Shown here piece by piece: positions 1-32,375 of a stretch of DNA of 64,000 nucleotides. The notes beneath the pieces are model-generated. The model saw only the letters and a list, made by a program, of their open reading frames with translations. It was not told where the DNA came from and did not search any database. The stretch's first letter is position 1; every line of letters starts with the position of its first letter. The DNA comes from Lachnospiraceae bacterium FE2018 (GTDB lineage: Bacteria > Bacillota > Clostridia > Lachnospirales > Lachnospiraceae), in contig JNKK01000001.1 in NCBI GenBank assembly GCA_000702845.1, positions 1 to 64,000 on the forward strand. The letters run 5' to 3'. The position numbers and the translations under genes are program-made.

Positions 1-7
1 CTTAAAC

Positions 8-360
8 ACATGCAAATTCTTTTGTATAAAGATTATGCATGCTTTTCAACATCAGATAAACATGCTGTTTTTTCTGTTTTCAAGAAAATGCATGCTTTAT
101 ATCTCAGCGCAGGCATGCAGTTCTTCGCTGTTTTGAGAATATGCATGTCTCATATCTCAGCGCAGGCATGCAGTTCTTCTCTATTTTAAGAAAATGCATG
201 TCTCACGCCCTTGCTTTTGCATGCTAATCTGCCATTTTCGAAATATTTGCATGCCTCACGCCATTATCTCGGCATGCAGATCTTCTTATATTTAAAATAA
301 TGCATGCTTTAAAGCAATCAGCAAGCATGCAAAAACACTTAAGAACAAACACATGCATGC
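8..360 (-). repeat. 53-bp-period GCATGC array, copy 1 (downstream of dnaN)
   Basis: Hexamers GCATGC (or one-base variants ACATGC/GCATGT) start at 8, 37, 60, 90, 113, 143, 166, 196, 219, 249, 272, 302, 325 and 355. After the first step of 29, the gaps alternate exactly 23 and 30, giving a 53-bp period. Read on the minus strand, which is the transcription sense of dnaN, each 23-bp pair reads GCATGCCTG-loop-GCATGC and could fold as a hairpin because the hexamer is self-complementary. The 30-bp linkers are AT-rich. The array runs into the window edge, so its true length is unknown. The same sequence family recurs at 8204-8685 in the opposite orientation. No protein is credible here. Function is unknown; a phased protein-binding array or repeated RNA hairpins are both possible. 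Confidence 0.9.
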
Positions 361-434
361 TCATATCTCTTTAAAAAGAATAATTGAATCGGGCAAATCC
401 CTGCATTCGATTTTGCACGGATATGCATTCCTCG

Positions 435-1544
435 TTACCTCGCTATATTTACAGGAAGCACAATATAATTATACTTTCCTTCATCATCTCTGATATAACA
501 TGGCGCCACCGGTCCGATGAAGTACATTGCAACATCTTCGTCATCGATCACACGAAGTGCATCCAGCAGGAATTTTGGATTAAATCCGATCCGGATATCC
601 TTTCCCTCCATCTCAATATCCATTGCTTCATCCATGGAACCGATTGCTGTATTGATCGAAAGCTGCATTGTATTGTCACTGATATTCAGAATCACCGGCA
701 TTTTATCACTTTCCCGCACAAGCAATGATGCGCGGTTGATGCAGTTAATCAGTTCCTGTTTATGAATCGTAACTTTCGTCTCGTAGTCATTGGACAGCAT
801 CTGATCTACACTGAAATACTCTCCGTCGATCAGTCTGGAAAGTACCATGGTTCTGTCAAATTCAAAAATAACATGATTGTCAGAGAAATAAATCGTTACC
901 GGATCTTCCAGTCCGCCGTCAATAATCCTTGAAAGTTCCTGGAGTGTCTTGCCGGGTATAATCACTCTTCTGTTTTCCACATCTGCGCCCAGTTCCTGCA
1001 TGCGAATGGCAATTCTGTGACCGTCAAGCGCCACAATTCTGAGATTGCCGCCATTCATTTCAAATAACTCACCGGTCATGATTTTATTGGTCTCATTTGC
1101 AGCTGTTGAGAAAATCGTCTGATTGATCATCTGCCGGAGTGTAAACTGCGTAACCGATACAGAAGCATTGCGCTCGACAATCGGGAGATATGCAAAGGTG
1201 TCGCCGGCCTGTCCGGGAATATCAAACTTTGCTTTTTCACATGTGATGCGCGTCAGAAGGTTTTCGCCGGTTTCGATTGTAACAGTGCTGGCAGGAAGTC
1301 TTCTGATGATTTCAGAAAAAGTCTTTGCGTGCAGCGCAACCATACCCCGCTCAATAATTGTACCTTCTGCGATTGTCTCAATACCAAGTTCCATATCATT
1401 GGAAATGAAACGAATCTGATCTGCAGAGGCATCAATAAGAATACATTCCAGAATCGGCATGGTTGTTTTAGATGAAACAGCTTTCATAGCGATATTGACG
1501 CTTTTTAAAAGTTCCTGGTGCTCAAACGTCAGTTTCATGTGCAC
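435..1544 (-). CDS. dnaN: DNA polymerase III beta subunit (sliding clamp)
   Basis: The 369-aa product has the usual length of the bacterial beta clamp and reads in the family pattern from the start (MKLTFEHQELLKSVNIAMKAV) to the C-terminal LPVNIAR-like end. The clamp forms a ring dimer around DNA and tethers the replicative polymerase and many repair proteins. It lies downstream of dnaA in the same direction, separated by a 243-bp segment carrying DnaA boxes, which is the classic Firmicute layout. Methionines 1 and 3 both precede KLTF; ATG at codon 3 (1536-1538) is an alternative start. Downstream (below 435) is the GCATGC array instead of the usual closely following yaaA/recF genes, which would lie outside the window. 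Confidence 0.97.
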   Translation of the reverse strand: MHMKLTFEHQELLKSVNIAMKAVSSKTTMPILECILIDASADQIRFISNDMELGIETIAEGTIIERGMVALHAKTFSEIIRRLPASTVTIETGENLLTRITCEKAKFDIPGQAGDTFAYLPIVERNASVSVTQFTLRQMINQTIFSTAANETNKIMTGELFEMNGGNLRIVALDGHRIAIRMQELGADVENRRVIIPGKTLQELSRIIDGGLEDPVTIYFSDNHVIFEFDRTMVLSRLIDGEYFSVDQMLSNDYETKVTIHKQELINCINRASLLVRESDKMPVILNISDNTMQLSINTAIGSMDEAMDIEMEGKDIRIGFNPKFLLDALRVIDDEDVAMYFIGPVAPCYIRDDEGKYNYIVLPVNIAR

Positions 1545-6485: not shown

Positions 6486-6676
6486 TTATTGTAGTGCTGG
6501 AGTTCGCCTGAAAACATATGTCCTTCTCTTTTTTGTGGAGGTAAAGGTAGGACTTGAAAGAAGTCCCGGCTTTTTGTAAAATCGTAGGCGAATGTAAGAA
6601 ACAAACAGTTTGTGTATTGCAAAAACAGCAGGGACCGGCCTGATATTTACCGGAATGAAATGCAGGGGGATTGGAT

Positions 6677-8107
6677 ATGAGCCGTTATGAGGATACGATT
6701 GCTGCAATTTCTACGGCAGCTTCGCCTGCCGGAATTGCTGTTATCAGAGTCAGCGGACCGGATGCAGTCAGTGCTGTAGATCAGATCTTTGTTTCTCCCG
6801 TCAGGAAAAAGCTGTCCGGACAGAAGGGAAATACCATTCACTACGGGTGGATCCGGAAGCCGCCGGAACATATTTCTGCTGATGCAGCTGATGAAGATCG
6901 GACTGATGACAAGGGAAGCATTGTCGATGAAGTACTGATTATGCTGATGAGAGCTCCGCATACTTTTACACGTGAAGATGTTGTGGAGATAGACTGTCAC
7001 GGCGGTGTGTTTGCTGCTCAGAAAGTTCTGGATACAGTCCTGCAGACAGGTGTCAGACCTGCCGAACCCGGTGAATTTACAAAGCGCGCATTTCTGAACG
7101 GACGAATTGACCTTTCACAGGCTGAAGCAGTAATGGATATCATTTCTTCAAGAAACCAGTATGCGCTGCAGTCTTCCGTCCGCCAGCTCTCCGGTGCACT
7201 CTCCGGCCGGATTCATGAAATCAGGAAGAAGCTGCTTCATGAGACGGCTTTTATCGAGGCTGCGCTGGATGATCCGGAACATATAGATATCGGAGAACAT
7301 TTAAGTGAGCTGAATTCAATTGTCAGTGAACAGAAGCTGCTGATCTCTGATCTGATCCGTTCCGCAGATTCCGGAAAGATGATCCGGGAAGGAATAAAGA
7401 CAGTAATTGTCGGGCGTCCAAATGCAGGAAAATCATCGCTGCTGAATGCACTTACAGGTGAAGAAACAGCGATTGTAACAGATATTGCCGGTACGACACG
7501 GGATGTACTTGAGGATCAGGTTACATTTGGAGGAATTGCGCTGCGTCTGCTTGATACCGCCGGAATCCGGCAGTCTGATGATAAGATTGAACAGATCGGT
7601 ATATCCCGGGCGCGCTCACACGCAGAAGACGCGGATCTGATTCTGTATGTGGTGGACAGTTCAGAATGCCTTGATGAAAATGATCAGGATATTTTTAAAA
7701 TGATCCGCGGGAAAAAAGCAATTGTGCTGCTGAATAAAAGTGACTTAAAAATGATTGTCACAAAAGAGGAAATCAGCAGTTATACAGACTGCACAATTCT
7801 TGAAATATCTGCAAAGAACAGAGAAGGATTTACTGAACTGGAAAAGTGTATTCGTGAAATGTTCTTTTCCGGTCAGATTTCGCAGAATGATGAGATCTAT
7901 ATCACAAATGCACGCCATACCCGCGCATTGCAGGATGCATATGACAGTCTGACACTGGTACAGGAAAGCATTCAAAATGGAATGCCGGAAGATTTCTTTT
8001 CCATTGATCTGATGGCTGCATGCGATGCACTTGGAAGAATTATCGGCGCAGATGTCAGTGAAGACCTGATCAATGAGATTTTTTCAGGTTTTTGTCTTGG
8101 AAAATGA
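6677..8107 (+). CDS. mnmE: tRNA modification GTPase MnmE
   Basis: The 476-aa protein has the N-terminal tetrahydrofolate-binding domain (SPAGIAVIRVSG; PGEFTKRAFLNGRIDL), a central helical region, and an inserted G domain with GRPNAGKSSLLNAL, DIAGTTRD, DTAGI and NKSD. It ends in the invariant FCLGK. With MnmG it installs the 5-carboxymethylaminomethyl group on wobble uridines. ATG 6677 is preferred because the AGGGGG ribosome-binding site (6664-6669) is well spaced from it; the frame also has TTG at 6671. Its partner mnmG is 0.7 kb downstream, separated by the second GCATGC array, whereas the two genes are usually adjacent. Confidence 0.96.
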   Translation: MSRYEDTIAAISTAASPAGIAVIRVSGPDAVSAVDQIFVSPVRKKLSGQKGNTIHYGWIRKPPEHISADAADEDRTDDKGSIVDEVLIMLMRAPHTFTREDVVEIDCHGGVFAAQKVLDTVLQTGVRPAEPGEFTKRAFLNGRIDLSQAEAVMDIISSRNQYALQSSVRQLSGALSGRIHEIRKKLLHETAFIEAALDDPEHIDIGEHLSELNSIVSEQKLLISDLIRSADSGKMIREGIKTVIVGRPNAGKSSLLNALTGEETAIVTDIAGTTRDVLEDQVTFGGIALRLLDTAGIRQSDDKIEQIGISRARSHAEDADLILYVVDSSECLDENDQDIFKMIRGKKAIVLLNKSDLKMIVTKEEISSYTDCTILEISAKNREGFTELEKCIREMFFSGQISQNDEIYITNARHTRALQDAYDSLTLVQESIQNGMPEDFFSIDLMAACDALGRIIGADVSEDLINEIFSGFCLGK

Positions 8108-8203
8108 ATCGGGATTTGTCGGGATGTTCATTCTTCTAAATAGTACGTGAGCATGACGGGGAAAGAGCATGAAGCGTGCTTTTTTCTAAAAAAGGGAAGA
8201 ACT

Positions 8204-8685
8204 GCATGCCTGTCCAGAGACAGGAAGCATGCAAATTTTTCAAAAATGGCAGAATAGCATGTCGATACAAGGGTGTGAAGCATGCAATTTTTCAAAGAAG
8301 GGAAGAACTGCATGCCTGTCCTGAAACATGAGGCATGCAAATTTTTCAAAAATGGCAGAATAGCATGCTTATATAAGGGTGTGAAGCATGCAAATTATCC
8401 AAGAGGGGAAGAATTGCATGCCTGATCAGAAGAATGAGGCATGCGTTTTCTTGAAGTAATGAGAATATGCATGCCTGACAAGAAGCTTGAAGCATGCGTT
8501 TTCTTGAAGCACAGAAGAATTGCATGCCTGCTTAGAGACAGGAAGCATGCAAATTTCTTAAAAATGGCAGAATAACATGCCGATACAAGTGCGAGAAGCA
8601 TGCAATTTCTTAAAGAAGGGAAGAACTGCATGCCTGCTCTGAGATATGAAGCATGCATATTTTTGAAAATAGAAAAATTGCATGC
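8204..8685 (+). repeat. 53-bp-period GCATGC array, copy 2 (between mnmE and mnmG)
   Basis: GCATGC or one-base variants start at 8204, 8227, 8257, 8280, 8310, 8333, 8363, 8386, 8416, 8439, 8469, 8492, 8522, 8545, 8575, 8598, 8628, 8651 and 8680. The gaps alternate 23 and 30 without exception until the final 29. Nine hairpin-capable pairs result. Pairs of type A (GCATGCCTGTCC...) alternate mostly with type B (GCATGTCGATACAAGGG...), and the linkers alternate too, so a 106-bp higher-order unit is visible. The best hairpin, at 8204-8232, has an extra inner stem CCTGTC/GACAGG. The sequence is the same family as 8-360 on the other strand. Apparent minus-strand reading frames here are products of the repeat. 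Confidence 0.93.
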
Positions 8686-8793
8686 GTACACAGTTGTTTT
8701 TAGACAATCCGTTTTTGTTCTTTGCTGCTTTGCCAATTTGTATGTGACAGGAATAATATCCCTGCAGCCCCGGTTTATATAGGAGATATTGAT

Positions 8794-10719
8794 TTGATAG
8801 AACATAATTTTGACGTAGTGGTCGTCGGAGCCGGACATGCCGGCTGTGAGGCTGCGCTCGCCTGTGCGCGGCTGGGACTTAAAACGATCATATTTACGGT
8901 CAGTGCAGACAGCATTGCCATGATGCCCTGCAATCCGAATATCGGAGGAAGTTCAAAAGGACATCTTGTGCGTGAAATTGATGCACTTGGCGGGGAAATG
9001 GGAAAGAATATTGATCGTACGTTTATTCAGTCCAAGATGTTGAACCGCTCAAAGGGTCCTGCAGTACACTCTTTGCGCGCGCAGGCTGATAAAAAAGATT
9101 ACAGTCAGTCTATGAGGAACGTGCTGGAAAATACGGATCATCTTACGATACGCCAGGCAGAAGTCTCTGATCTGATGATTGAAAACAATATATGCTGTGG
9201 TGTGAAAACAGTATCCGGTGCTGTATATCACAGTAAGGCAGTTGTATTGTGTACCGGTGTTTATCTAAATGCACGGTGTCTTTGCGGAGAAGTGATCACT
9301 CATTCCGGTCCGAATGGCCTGCAGGCAGCGACACATCTGACACAGTCTTTAATTTTACATAATATAGAAGTAATGCGGTTTAAAACAGGAACGCCTGCGA
9401 GAATTGATAAACGGACAATTGATTTTTCAAAGATGGAGGAACAGAAAGGCGACGAACGGGTCGTTCCATTCTCCTTCTCAACTGATCCGGAAGATGTTCA
9501 GATTGAACAGGTTTCCTGCTGGCTGACTCATACCTGTGAAAAAACACATGACATAATACGTGCGAATTTAGACAGATCACCGATCTATGCAGGCATTATT
9601 GATGGAATTGGTCCGCGCTACTGCCCTTCCATTGAAGATAAAGTCGTTAAATTCGGTGAAAAAAACAGTCATCAGGTATTTATTGAGCCGGAAGGCCGTT
9701 ATACGAATGAGATGTATATCGACGGCATGTCAAGTTCTATGCCGGAAGATGTACAGGAAAAGATGTATCGATCAGTCCCGGGACTGGAAAATGCCAAAAT
9801 TGTAAGGAATGCCTATGCGATTGAGTATGATTTGATCAATCCGGTTCAATTACATCCGACGCTTGAATTTAAAAAGTATCGCGGCCTGTTTGCAGGGGGT
9901 CAGATTAATGGCAGCTCCGGGTATGAAGAGGCTGCTGCACAGGGCCTTCTGGCAGGAATCAATGCCGCGATGGAGATTCTTGGTAAAGAACAGATTATTC
10001 TTGATCGTTCAGAGGCATATCTGGGTGTTCTGATTGATGATCTTGTAACAAAAGAGACGCAGGAACCGTATCGGATGATGACAAGCCGTGCGGAATACCG
10101 GCTGATGCTGCGCCAGGATAATGCTGATCTGCGTCTCAGAAAATATGGCTACTATGCAGGATTAATTTCTGAATCGGAGTATGAGAAGCTTCTATTAAAA
10201 GAGCGTCAGATTACAGAGGAAATCGACCGTCTCAGACGTACCTTTGTCGGCATGACGGATGATGTTCAAAAGCTTTTGGAAAAAAACGGTTCAACACCGC
10301 TGAAAAGCGGCAGTTCCCTTGCTGACCTGATCCGCAGACCGGAACTGGATTATGATATTCTGGCTGAGATTGATCCGGAGCGTCCCGCTCTTTCGGATCC
10401 GGTAAAGGAACAGGTCAATATCAATATTAAATATGAAGGTTATATTGAGCGGCAAAAGCGTCAGATTCAGCAGTTCCGAAAGAAAGAAGTACGTTTAATC
10501 CCGGATTCTGTTAATTATGATGATGTAGAAAGTCTCCGGCTTGAGGCGCGGCAGAAACTGCAGCGTTTCCGTCCGAGGAGTATCGGACAGGCATCCAGAA
10601 TTCAGGGAGTCTCTCCTGCTGATATTTCTGTTTTAATGGTATATTTACAGTCCATTTCCCGATCTTCAGCGCAGGAGTCTCCTGATTTTAGTAATGAGAC
10701 AAATACTATACAGGAATAG
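8794..10719 (+). CDS. mnmG: tRNA uridine-5-carboxymethylaminomethyl modification enzyme MnmG
   Basis: The product of about 641 aa has an N-terminal FAD-binding motif [21 protein letters not shown]-type (residues about 7-27), the [21 protein letters not shown] segment, the conserved cysteine-containing regions, and the C-terminal MnmE-interaction helix domain ([18 protein letters not shown]). It partners MnmE in wobble uridine modification. TTG 8794 is chosen as start: AGGAGA at 8781-8786 is correctly spaced and the family begins just there. The frame extends 24 codons upstream toward the repeat array, but that extension is not family-like. rsmG follows after 3 bp. Confidence 0.95.
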
Positions 10720-30100: not shown

Positions 30101-32375
30101 CAATGAGAGCTATCTTCTGACGGACGGTGAACCGAGAACATTTAAGATCGTTACGGACGGGGAGATCGTAAAAGCGAATACAGAAGGAGACGGACTGAAC
30201 TTCCGGAACCAGGTCGTGCGAAACGAGATCAGCTTCAACAAGATCGCGGACGGCACCAATGCCCGTATGGACAGAATCGCTTTTGTCCTGACCATGATGA
30301 AGACAGGAGAGCAACATGTGATTGTTACGGATCGGAACGGAATGTTCCATTCCGGCGGAAAAACCAATCCGCATTCACAGAGAACGAATGCAAATGATGC
30401 CCTGCTGGAGAAATATCAGGATGAGGATGCCGTAATCCCCGCGGACGAGACAGATCCAAAAGCGGGCCTCTGGTTCAGCAAAGGCCAGAAGGGATCCGAA
30501 GCACCGGTCAGGGATGATCTCGGAGCTCTTCCATACGGAGAGTACCGGATGGAGGAACTCCACTGTGAGAACAACACCGGCTATACGCGTCTGGACGTGA
30601 AGTTCTATGTGGACGATGACAAGACCGTGCTGCCGGTGATCGACCTCGGTACCATGACGGATGATGAGGAGGAAAAGCCGGAGATCGGGACACAGGCCGC
30701 GGCAGAGGATACCGGAACCAATGAAACACAGGCTTCAAAGAAAACAACTATCATCGATACCGTAAAATACGAAAACCTGAAGGCTGATGGCAAGACCGAG
30801 TACACAATGTACGGGAAACTTATGATCGTGCCGGACGGGGCAGGCGAAGCAAAAGAACTTCTGGTGAACGGCAAACCGGTAACTGCCGAAAAGACCTTCA
30901 AGCCGGAGAAAAAGAACGGGACCGTAGAGATGACGTTCACGTTTGATTCCTCCGCCCTTGCAGGCATGAAGACCGTTGTGTTCGAAGAAGTGCGAAACGG
31001 AAAGCTGGTCGTGGCCGCGCATGCGGATCCAAAAGATGAGGGACAGCAGGTATCGATCGTAGACTTCGGAACCACGGCAACAGACGGGAAAACCGGAACC
31101 CATGAATCGGAGGCTTCCAAGGATACCGTCTTTATCGATGTCGTGAAATATCAGGGACTGACCCCGGGTAAACAGTACGTCCTGAAAGGAACGCTGATGG
31201 ATGCGGATACCGGAAAGGAACTGCTGATAAACGGCAGGCCGGTAACCGCAGAGAAAGAGTTCACGCCGGAGAAGAAAGACGGCAGTGTGGAAGTGGAATT
31301 CCATCTTGATTCCTCCGCGCTCGCAGGCAGGGAAACAGTTGTATTTGAGAATCTCTACCGGGACGGGAAAAAGATCGCAGTTCATACGGATATCAAAGAC
31401 GAAGGGCAGAAGATTAAAACCATTTCGATCGGAACGACCGCAACCGATCAGAAAACAGGAACGCATGAATCTGAGGCATCGAAAAAGGCAGTCTTTATCG
31501 ATGTCGTGAAATATCAGGGACTGACCCCGGGCAAAAAATATGTTCTGAAAGGAACCCTGATGGATGCGGATACCGGAAAGCAGCTGCTCGTAAACGGAAA
31601 GGCGGTAACGGCAGAGAAGGAATTCACACCTGACAAGAAGGATGGAAGCGTAAAGATGGAATTCAAACTGGACACTTCTGCACTTGCAGGAAAGGAAACG
31701 GTTGTGTTCGAAGATCTCTATCGGGACGGCAAAAAGATTGCGGCCCATGCGGATATCAAAGATGAGGGTCAGAAGATCACGATTATTAAGATCAAAACCA
31801 AAGCCATTGATAAGGAAACAGAGACACAAAACGCCGTGCCGGGTAAGAAGACAGTGATTGTCGATACCGTGAGCTATGAGGGCCTTATTCCGGGAAAAGA
31901 ATACACCCTGAAGGGAACCCTGATGGATGCGAAAACCGGAAAGCCGCTGAAGGTGAACGGCAAAGAGGTAACTGCTGAGAAAACCTTCAAGCCTGGCAAG
32001 GCAAAGGGCATGGTGGAGATGGAATTCAAACTGGATTCTTCTGCGCTGGCAGATAAGAAAACGGTTGTTTTTGAGGATCTGTTTCATGAAAAAGTCAAGG
32101 TGGCTTCTCATGCGGATCTGAAAGATAAAAATCAGACTGTAACATTTAAGAGTCCGACACCTACGCCAACACCGACGCCATCTTATACGCCGGCATCGGG
32201 AACTCCCAATGTGAGTACACCATCTACACCGGTAACGCCGTCGAAGTCCACTTCAATCAAGGCAAAGCCGGTAAAGACAGGCGACAACTCCAAAACGGCA
32301 GTCTGGGTTGTGCTGATGGCCCTTGCGGGAGCAGCAGGCACAGGGCTTGCACTCTATCAGAAAAGGAAAAAATGA
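27108..32375 (+). CDS. Giant thioester/VaFE-repeat cell-wall surface protein
   Basis: The 1755-aa secreted protein has a signal peptide (1-29) and an Ala/Glu/Lys/Thr-rich stalk (30-160). A thioester domain follows, with the motif YC at Cys278 and TQMAVW with Gln338, the two residues expected to form the internal Cys-Gln thioester used for covalent host attachment. A ricin-like segment (about 430-556; QRWKLESTGEAGYYFIKNEQ) and SpaA-like Cna-B domains starting near 678, 800, 918 and 1037 come next. Four VaFE-type repeats start near 1215, 1341, 1461 and 1581 (VVKYQGLTPGKQYVLKGTLM). A Pro/Thr linker leads to a sortase-like VKTGD motif, a membrane helix and a basic tail. It starts 14 bp after parA and is probably co-transcribed with it. 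Confidence 0.9.
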   Translation: MRTGKQRVLSLILVVVFLIGAVAIPATASGTSDKSEAAEQALSSVSAADAEKTEEQVKAEQTETKTAEAANASVSSASVAEPEEGAKTDAEKQAANTGTAAAEKTETDKGTSDSKNSGTPAGNNSTAGSSTGKTEAADNVKEQPAEVSKSEAGTEPDPEKKSLDEMTDEEILIAGESLLKTAIAEADKRRGDLDIIFSGDDLALYIRYQEVKRKAQTTRSGRKMLKAASAQAEIKHIYAKDYGPLIQMASAVTQEFPYMRPVGTHVHYDTETNNAVYCANINRHFVSDTIYEVAGQWKDDEMYSALSYVFEKGVRKLNGTAKKKYSTGDSTRDWYATQMAVWGILHHFGIKDAKGWDAGFDMNQTQAIGGYENVYNMMHKLYDDALYYASKKNDGSASDPYFVMENPDYKLILQGKTDVPFYITSAEEPVYTLDIKGSSNASEASVVLHKKDYDNSQRWKLESTGEAGYYFIKNEQSGKYLETDGTGNNDDIQQNTKDGSDKQKWNMIAAADGTVQFAPKAAPGKRIDVKNGVFVNGTNVRLYKATNGKSQMFRCEPADVRVKNVSSDGKYLQTDWIDVEADGDLVSRKYSLVDAPKGASIVYESETNPLSRVAVRVPIASIPAGGQCDFKIKVEATFSKPSVSYLAINDASTQELLVAGNSSQVTVSDRLAVYTIPIFGGVKVNKRDADTKDTVPQGDASLKGAAFEIINKSGYPVIVSGKEYADGAVTKTITTDDKGYAATGNKDLQVGTYLIRESGAPTGYLGEGVTERTFTLTALEEGVLYDMTAPDNAIHNKVIMGGVRIKKQDSHYQDDEAQGDAILKDAEFTITNKSKNAVVVGGKSFASGKDVMIIRTDEKGIAQTAADALPYGSYEIRETKNSNGYLLNSVWKKSFQIRENGKIVDLTQEPCDEDVIRGGVEIEKRDKELDKNEALGGASLEGIEFTITNASKLRVWIDEKSFEPGAEITKIYTDEDGHASLPADYFPYGTYTIQETATNESYLLTDGEPRTFKIVTDGEIVKANTEGDGLNFRNQVVRNEISFNKIADGTNARMDRIAFVLTMMKTGEQHVIVTDRNGMFHSGGKTNPHSQRTNANDALLEKYQDEDAVIPADETDPKAGLWFSKGQKGSEAPVRDDLGALPYGEYRMEELHCENNTGYTRLDVKFYVDDDKTVLPVIDLGTMTDDEEEKPEIGTQAAAEDTGTNETQASKKTTIIDTVKYENLKADGKTEYTMYGKLMIVPDGAGEAKELLVNGKPVTAEKTFKPEKKNGTVEMTFTFDSSALAGMKTVVFEEVRNGKLVVAAHADPKDEGQQVSIVDFGTTATDGKTGTHESEASKDTVFIDVVKYQGLTPGKQYVLKGTLMDADTGKELLINGRPVTAEKEFTPEKKDGSVEVEFHLDSSALAGRETVVFENLYRDGKKIAVHTDIKDEGQKIKTISIGTTATDQKTGTHESEASKKAVFIDVVKYQGLTPGKKYVLKGTLMDADTGKQLLVNGKAVTAEKEFTPDKKDGSVKMEFKLDTSALAGKETVVFEDLYRDGKKIAAHADIKDEGQKITIIKIKTKAIDKETETQNAVPGKKTVIVDTVSYEGLIPGKEYTLKGTLMDAKTGKPLKVNGKEVTAEKTFKPGKAKGMVEMEFKLDSSALADKKTVVFEDLFHEKVKVASHADLKDKNQTVTFKSPTPTPTPTPSYTPASGTPNVSTPSTPVTPSKSTSIKAKPVKTGDNSKTAVWVVLMALAGAAGTGLALYQKRKK

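Follow-up and report, generated by a model that had tools for sequence, protein, structure and literature searches.

A regularly spaced GCATGC hairpin array between mnmE and mnmG of Lachnospiraceae bacterium FE2018 is probably the tandem core of a small dispersed element with terminal inverted repeats

What is the row of regularly spaced GCATGC hexamers that lies between mnmE and mnmG in Lachnospiraceae bacterium FE2018, and how did it come to be placed there? We addressed this question in the window, i.e., the whole stretch of 64,000 nucleotides that was analysed (contig JNKK01000001.1, positions 1 to 64,000), in the remainder of the genome, and in related genomes. The window contains two such arrays, the second of which (37-360) had gone unmentioned in an earlier note on this DNA. 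The features of the two loci are as follows.

6671-8107, plus strand: mnmE, with stop codon TGA at 8105-8107; NCBIfam profile TIGR00450 matches with positions 4-446 of 446 on residues 17-478 of 478
8107-8120, plus strand: left terminal inverted repeat (TIR) of the window copy, AATCGGGATTTGTC, with 0 mismatches to AATCGGGRTTTGYC; the mnmE stop is at offset -2
8121-8203, plus strand: leader of the window copy, shortened and worn, from the leader alignment and a register scan; its hexamers at 8151 and 8174 are in register and have one mismatch each
8204-8685, plus strand: core array of GCATGC-N17-GCATGC-N24 units, with a 53-bp period, a 106-bp A/B alternation and a last step of 29
8703-8716, plus strand: possible decayed right TIR, GACAATCCGTTTTT, uncertain, agreeing with GACAAACCCCGATT at 9 of 14 positions in a by-eye comparison
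8797-10719, plus strand: mnmG, with its start set by comparison with relatives
1-401, minus strand: another element of this family, following dnaN, with its trailer at 1-95, its array at 37-360 and its leader at 272-401
435-1544, minus strand: dnaN, adjoined by the second array (37-360)

The core array contains 19 hexamers in register, of which 17 are exact GCATGC and two have one mismatch (GCATGT at 8257, ACATGC at 8575). The earlier note had described the row as error-free until its last step; this is correct for the spacing, which alternates between 23 and 30 up to the final step of 29, but not for the hexamers, given the two mismatches. The register continues upstream of 8204 through the one-mismatch hexamers at 8151 and 8174. 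Phase statistics, which the note had proposed, set the spacing far apart from chance. Exact GCATGC pairs in the whole window (both arrays) occur 10, 9 and 19 times at spacings of 23, 30 and 53, against a random expectation of about 0.02 per spacing, and the window contains 38 GCATGC in total, against a shuffled mean of 23.9 (standard deviation 4.9, 100 shuffles). The 106-bp alternation of A and B units was also recovered: the mean identity of 53-bp units in the window array was 0.71, 0.68, 0.82 and 0.72 at even lags and 0.64, 0.63, 0.62 and 0.65 at odd lags.

The array does split two genes that are normally adjacent, as had been suggested. The mnmE-mnmG gap spans 689 bp in the window, against a median of 49 bp in 78 of 80 related loci (66 gaps are shorter than 160 bp and the maximum is 544 bp; L124, which is without mnmE, and L167, which has a reversed best match, were left out of the count). 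In relatives that lack the element, mnmE ends at the same stop codon. The start of the window copy coincides with this natural stop, the first base (A) of its left TIR being the third base of the stop codon (a one-base overlap); hence, mnmE is intact and mnmG lies downstream. The copy is worn, and its right TIR is doubtful. The leader consensus matches it weakly (8107-8155, E 0.395), and the search with the trailer consensus gave no match at this copy.

Arrays of this type are dispersed through the genome. We found GCATGC-N17-GCATGC 86 times in its 3.2 Mb (119 contigs), and the reversed control pattern 0 times. These pairs belong to some 15 arrays, on many contigs and beside unrelated genes, a number that was inferred by joining contig ends when units or flanking genes were common to them. 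The sample consisted of the window and 18 fetched stretches (19 sources), with 21 array rows, all of them in the 23/30 register; L076 contributes two rows that belong to a single array, and several rows are the two ends of one array split by a contig break. Successive exact hexamers in all the fetched arrays were separated by 171 steps, of which 163 were in register and eight were off by one base, with arrays cut by contig ends partly counted twice; at about 32 further positions of the register the hexamer was not exact. This agrees with the earlier observation that spacing is kept while the spacers drift. The mean consensus over 82 distinct units was 0.97 for the hexamer and 0.63 for the spacers, the former being biased upward because the units were chosen by their hexamers, so that the table of steps is the fairer measure. 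Units were more alike within arrays (identity 0.69, 179 pairs) than between arrays (0.60, 3,307 pairs), and neighbouring units were most alike, ties included, in seven of the ten arrays with at least five units. Alike neighbours and the alternation in the window array are expected from the duplication of one or two units.

The array copies have a leader and a trailer in common, as judged by alignment, and the consensus of these parts matched the genome 23 times at E ≤ 1e-5. The resulting layout is modular, i.e., A-(B)n-C as in BOX elements, and is worn at the window copy. Identified genes end upstream on the same strand in 11 of the approximately 15 arrays; one array (C3/C18) adjoins a divergent gene start, and no TIR was recognised there.

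Judged by MnmG, the closest named relatives are two Eubacterium MAGs from the jejunum of goat and roe deer (92-93%); several further relatives, including [Eubacterium] cellulosolvens LD2006, are at 78% and below. The four other genomes of the genus contain no GCATGC arrays and at most one isolated pair each. In the search for spaced pairs that had been proposed in the earlier note, 38 of 397 family genomes contain the 23-spaced pair, one to three times each outside this genome and once each in the two sister species (G397 and G398), and the reversed control occurs once in each of 10 of the 397. In none of the other 394 genomes of the family sample does the pair exceed three copies. The four-hexamer pattern had 0 matches in a collection of genome contigs, from which own or very near records may be missing. 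The leader/trailer consensus gave short matches at E ≤ 0.01 in 30 of the 396 other family genomes (at best 41.9 bits over 30 bp), in a search that scored two candidates per genome and could miss weak relatives; we read these matches as chance.

The ends of the elements are TIRs of the form AATCGGGGTTTGTC...GACAAACCCCGATT. Allowing at most one mismatch, we found a TIR at either end in five of the approximately 15 GCATGC elements (the window copy and those at dnaN, xseA-xseB, ttcA-like/dapF and the IolO-like locus), the ends of the others being worn or read by eye. Both TIRs are present at this threshold in the IolO-like element, and in the ttcA-like/dapF element they lie at opposite ends, each on a contig of its own; all others, among them the window copy, have one TIR end or worn ends. 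The TIR pattern at this threshold occurs 22 times in this genome, 23 times in G397, 51 times in G398, and twice each in G081 and G382, with no match of the reversed control in any of the five. An inspection of these matches by eye showed no TIRs that face each other at a distance of 0.8-4 kb, as might bound a related autonomous element with a transposase. We fetched 60 loci around TIR matches (36 from G398, 14 from G397 and 10 from this genome), and 26 of them, two weak, have a TIR at both ends, at 64 to 566 bp end to end; 15 of the 24 non-weak elements measure 119-152 bp. The flanking dinucleotides are mostly TA, CA or TG and are often unequal between the two sides, so that a clean target duplication is not apparent. 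IS630 elements follow a TA target rule. A passage of PMC4853749, a paper that describes other MITEs, touches on this rule.

Many TIRs begin on a stop codon. We tested 86 TIR ends in G398, G397 and this genome, all with 250 bp or more of flanking sequence, against ORFs of at least 80 codons, and 24 of them have a stop at offset -2 (14 in G398, eight in G397 and two in this genome); the next commonest offset has four cases. At offset -2 two bases of the stop lie outside the TIR and its third base is the first TIR base. One of the two cases in this genome is the window copy and the other (L094) is probably an antisense ORF; without the latter, and with five same-gene pairs across two genomes removed, there are by our own reading about 18 distinct gene sites. 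A TA before the TIR always spells TAA, so that gene truncation had to be excluded, and we therefore checked where protein profiles end. In ten stop-overlap genes the profile matched to within four positions of its end in six cases (MnmE twice, HisB, DapF, DeoD and a dipeptidase) and to within nine in one; three were uninformative. The window copy is the only GCATGC element for which the exact overlap was shown. The distance from the stop to the first hexamer is 43 bp in the window copy and 43-46 bp in four other GCATGC elements, which suggests, without proving it, that these were placed in the same way.

The sister species have no GCATGC arrays, yet they have other cores at some of the same sites. 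At eight of the approximately 15 GCATGC sites, some with gene assignments made by eye, at least one sister species has the TIRs with a different core: mnmE-mnmG, xseA-xseB, the IolO-like locus, pgsA, ttcA-like/dapF, recR, ribF, and a sigma-54 regulator. Between mnmE and mnmG, G397 has TIRs and another core, on two contigs, and G398 is empty, with a 14-bp gap. At xseA-xseB the situation is reversed, with an occupied site in G398 and an empty one in G397. Both sisters are occupied at the IolO-like locus, where by eye the core of G397 is inverted relative to that of G398. The remaining five sites are occupied in this way in G398 (the ribF contig is without the truB side), and G397 has a single TIR after pgsA. 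The other seven sites had no counterpart among the fetched sister loci, which does not by itself prove absence. A further site, upstream of a gene that by eye looks like murG, has the left TIR in all three genomes, as a lone remnant in the sisters.

Other hairpin arrays are associated with these TIRs as well. In G397, contig C122 (L303 776-953) contains a hairpin array with a 64-bp period inside the same TIRs. In FE2018 itself, contig C59 (L318 1-300) has tandem hairpin units with an 86-bp period, GCATCCGCA...TGCGGATGC, behind a left TIR, and contig C42 (L317 1004-1225) has hairpins that look similar by eye behind a left TIR, with no tandem row called; on both contigs the right end is beyond the contig end. 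An element on contig C20 of FE2018 has its core in common with composite elements of both sisters.

We conclude that the array is probably the expanded tandem core of a small, non-coding and non-autonomous element, with ends and size as in MITEs and a layout as in BOX. The organisation that we favour, with similar confidence, is TIR, leader, a variable number of 53-bp hairpin units, trailer, TIR. The family has TIRs at both ends, and its dispersed copies are present in some relatives and absent from others, both of which are features of MITEs. Two features are unusual, namely the exact placement on stop codons and the fact that addresses are kept while the cores between the TIRs change.

According to passages of PMC3049150, BOX elements of Streptococcus pneumoniae consist of A-(B)n-C modules with a variable number of middle modules, inverted-repeat ends and predicted hairpins, are intergenic, are confined to one species and near relatives, and are enriched between convergent genes. 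The elements described here are similar in their modular layout with variable middle modules, inverted-repeat ends, intergenic position, narrow host range and predicted hairpins, and the likeness is one of layout only. They differ in host group, in the 53-bp module with its nearly fixed GCATGC, in the left end at a stop codon, and in that one TIR pair is common to several unrelated cores; moreover, 11 of the approximately 15 arrays follow a co-directional identified gene, unlike the convergent-gene enrichment given for BOX in those passages. They resemble IS630/Tc1-mariner-type MITEs, and RUP as it appears in the same source, in being short, non-coding, TIR-bounded and often flanked by TA, and differ from such MITEs in their tandem core. 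The part of PMC3733652 on REP, BIME and REPIN describes palindromes that are sometimes arrayed and mostly downstream of genes, as here, but the present family has no GTAG/CGTC tag and no neighbouring RAYT, and is bounded by TIRs. The earlier note knew of no described family of this kind: our searches of the open-access literature likewise gave no element with the 23/30 GCATGC metric, but the layout is that of a BOX-type miniature element. We judge the family to be of the miniature-insertion kind, with the layout of BOX and the ends of MITEs, and with REP/BIME and CRISPR failing on the features tested.

Under this interpretation, a putative transposase would place copies in trans, and insertion at a stop codon would be tolerated, since TR|A restores TAA or TGA. 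Arrays would grow as one unit or two at a time are duplicated in tandem, preserving the 53/106-bp metric while substitutions build up. The hexamer may persist because each copy is self-complementary and could close a hairpin with either neighbour; if stems are interchangeable in this way, one partner could not compensate a change in a hexamer. Once transcribed, the array is predicted to give a series of hairpins between cistrons. Simple insertion does not lead one to expect that three species have unrelated cores at shared sites. A tentative extension, to which we give somewhat less than even weight, is that the family is anchored at stop codons, that its TIRs and chromosomal addresses were inherited, that the core was replaced wholesale in each lineage, and that one lineage filled many of its addresses with an expanding GCATGC ladder; replacement between kept TIRs would be a cassette exchange or a concerted replacement. 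Elements that start on a stop and rebuild it can sit in essential operons without breaking proteins, e.g., at mnmE-mnmG and, in the sisters, at hisB, dapF and others. If the same addresses do carry species-specific cores, they offer a natural series for testing the origin, spread and effect on expression of hairpin ladders.

An alternative that we regard as rather unlikely is an intercistronic RNA element beneficial to the host, in which hairpins lined up 3' of stop codons would stabilise the mRNA or tune it, with the TIRs as closing stem. The co-directional upstream genes fit it, and so does the predicted fold, strong on both strands (z -7.1 and -8.5, 20 shuffles each). The hairpin cores of the sister species also keep their pairing through changes: in an alignment of 13 elements of the 119-152 bp class (of 17 listed; L262, L265, L272 and L302 were left out), 8 of the 41 predicted pairs have changes on both sides. 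The GCATGC unit itself behaves otherwise. Of its 20 inner pairs, 18 have Watson-Crick counts near those expected from shuffling and two have higher counts (22 vs 14.9 and 51 vs 40.1); a compensated change of a hexamer was not seen. In the folding and covariance analysis proposed in the earlier note, the predicted fold was strong but covariation inside the unit was next to nil, and a covariation-backed RNA fold of the unit is unsupported. Rfam matched only a tRNA in the window and nothing in the array locus (L016), and the differing cores and empty sites of the sisters also count against this alternative. Less probable still is a protein bound to palindromic GCATGC on one face of the DNA, for nucleoid organisation or origin control. 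It would account for a hexamer far more conserved than its spacers, a kept register, and two window arrays within about 5 kb of dnaA. Yet, the arrays lie on many contigs beside unrelated genes, none occurs in the other four genomes of the genus, and neither 23 nor 30 bp corresponds to a whole number of helical turns. GCATGC outside arrays is also about as frequent as expected (55 vs 52.1 in 180 kb of FE2018 sequence; 11 vs 13.6 in the window). The earlier note, from which the idea of an origin-specific or phased-binding feature came, had itself named such dispersal as evidence against it, and this version is thus unsupported.

We consider it very improbable that the array is of the REP/BIME type and owes its movement to a REP-associated tyrosine transposase (RAYT). 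The palindromes are regularly spaced, intergenic and mostly downstream of genes, and the genome has five matches to Y1 transposases, two of them longer than 100 aa; but none of 70 exact hairpin pairs has GTAG or CGTC as a tag within 8 bp, the five Y1 loci are free of arrays, with no more than three isolated GCATGC in any of them, and the elements are bounded by TIRs. A CRISPR-like array would share the regular spacing and is scarcely credible: as the earlier note had argued, the units are hairpins and there is no long identical repeat. The 17- and 24-base parts both drift. A store of restriction sites for an avoided palindrome is ruled out by the near-expected frequency of GCATGC outside arrays. 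A plasmid or phage origin was rejected, with no match to the array, and none of the three-hexamer pattern in viral contigs, in collections from which own or very near records may be missing.

Other repeats and structured elements were seen along the way. Palindromic inserts occur in the mnmE-mnmG spacers of more distant Lachnospiraceae (L152 near 3570, L158 near 3565, L164 near 3805). Their core resembles GTACTAAA-TC...TTAAGTGC-GGCGT, which is also found in the composite elements of G397, G398 and contig C20 of FE2018; inserts and composite elements perhaps form a wider hairpin family. Clostridiales-1 RNA (RF01699) scored well above its gathering score at L228 695-858, L229 697-857 and L130 3751-3919, the last inside an mnmE-mnmG spacer. 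On contig C41 of FE2018 (L039), a Y1 transposase gene lies beside an opposite long ORF that is TnpB-like by eye, an IS200/IS605-like arrangement. Within the window, positions 31128-32080 contain 2.6 copies of a 363-bp tandem repeat, which is probably a repeated protein domain.
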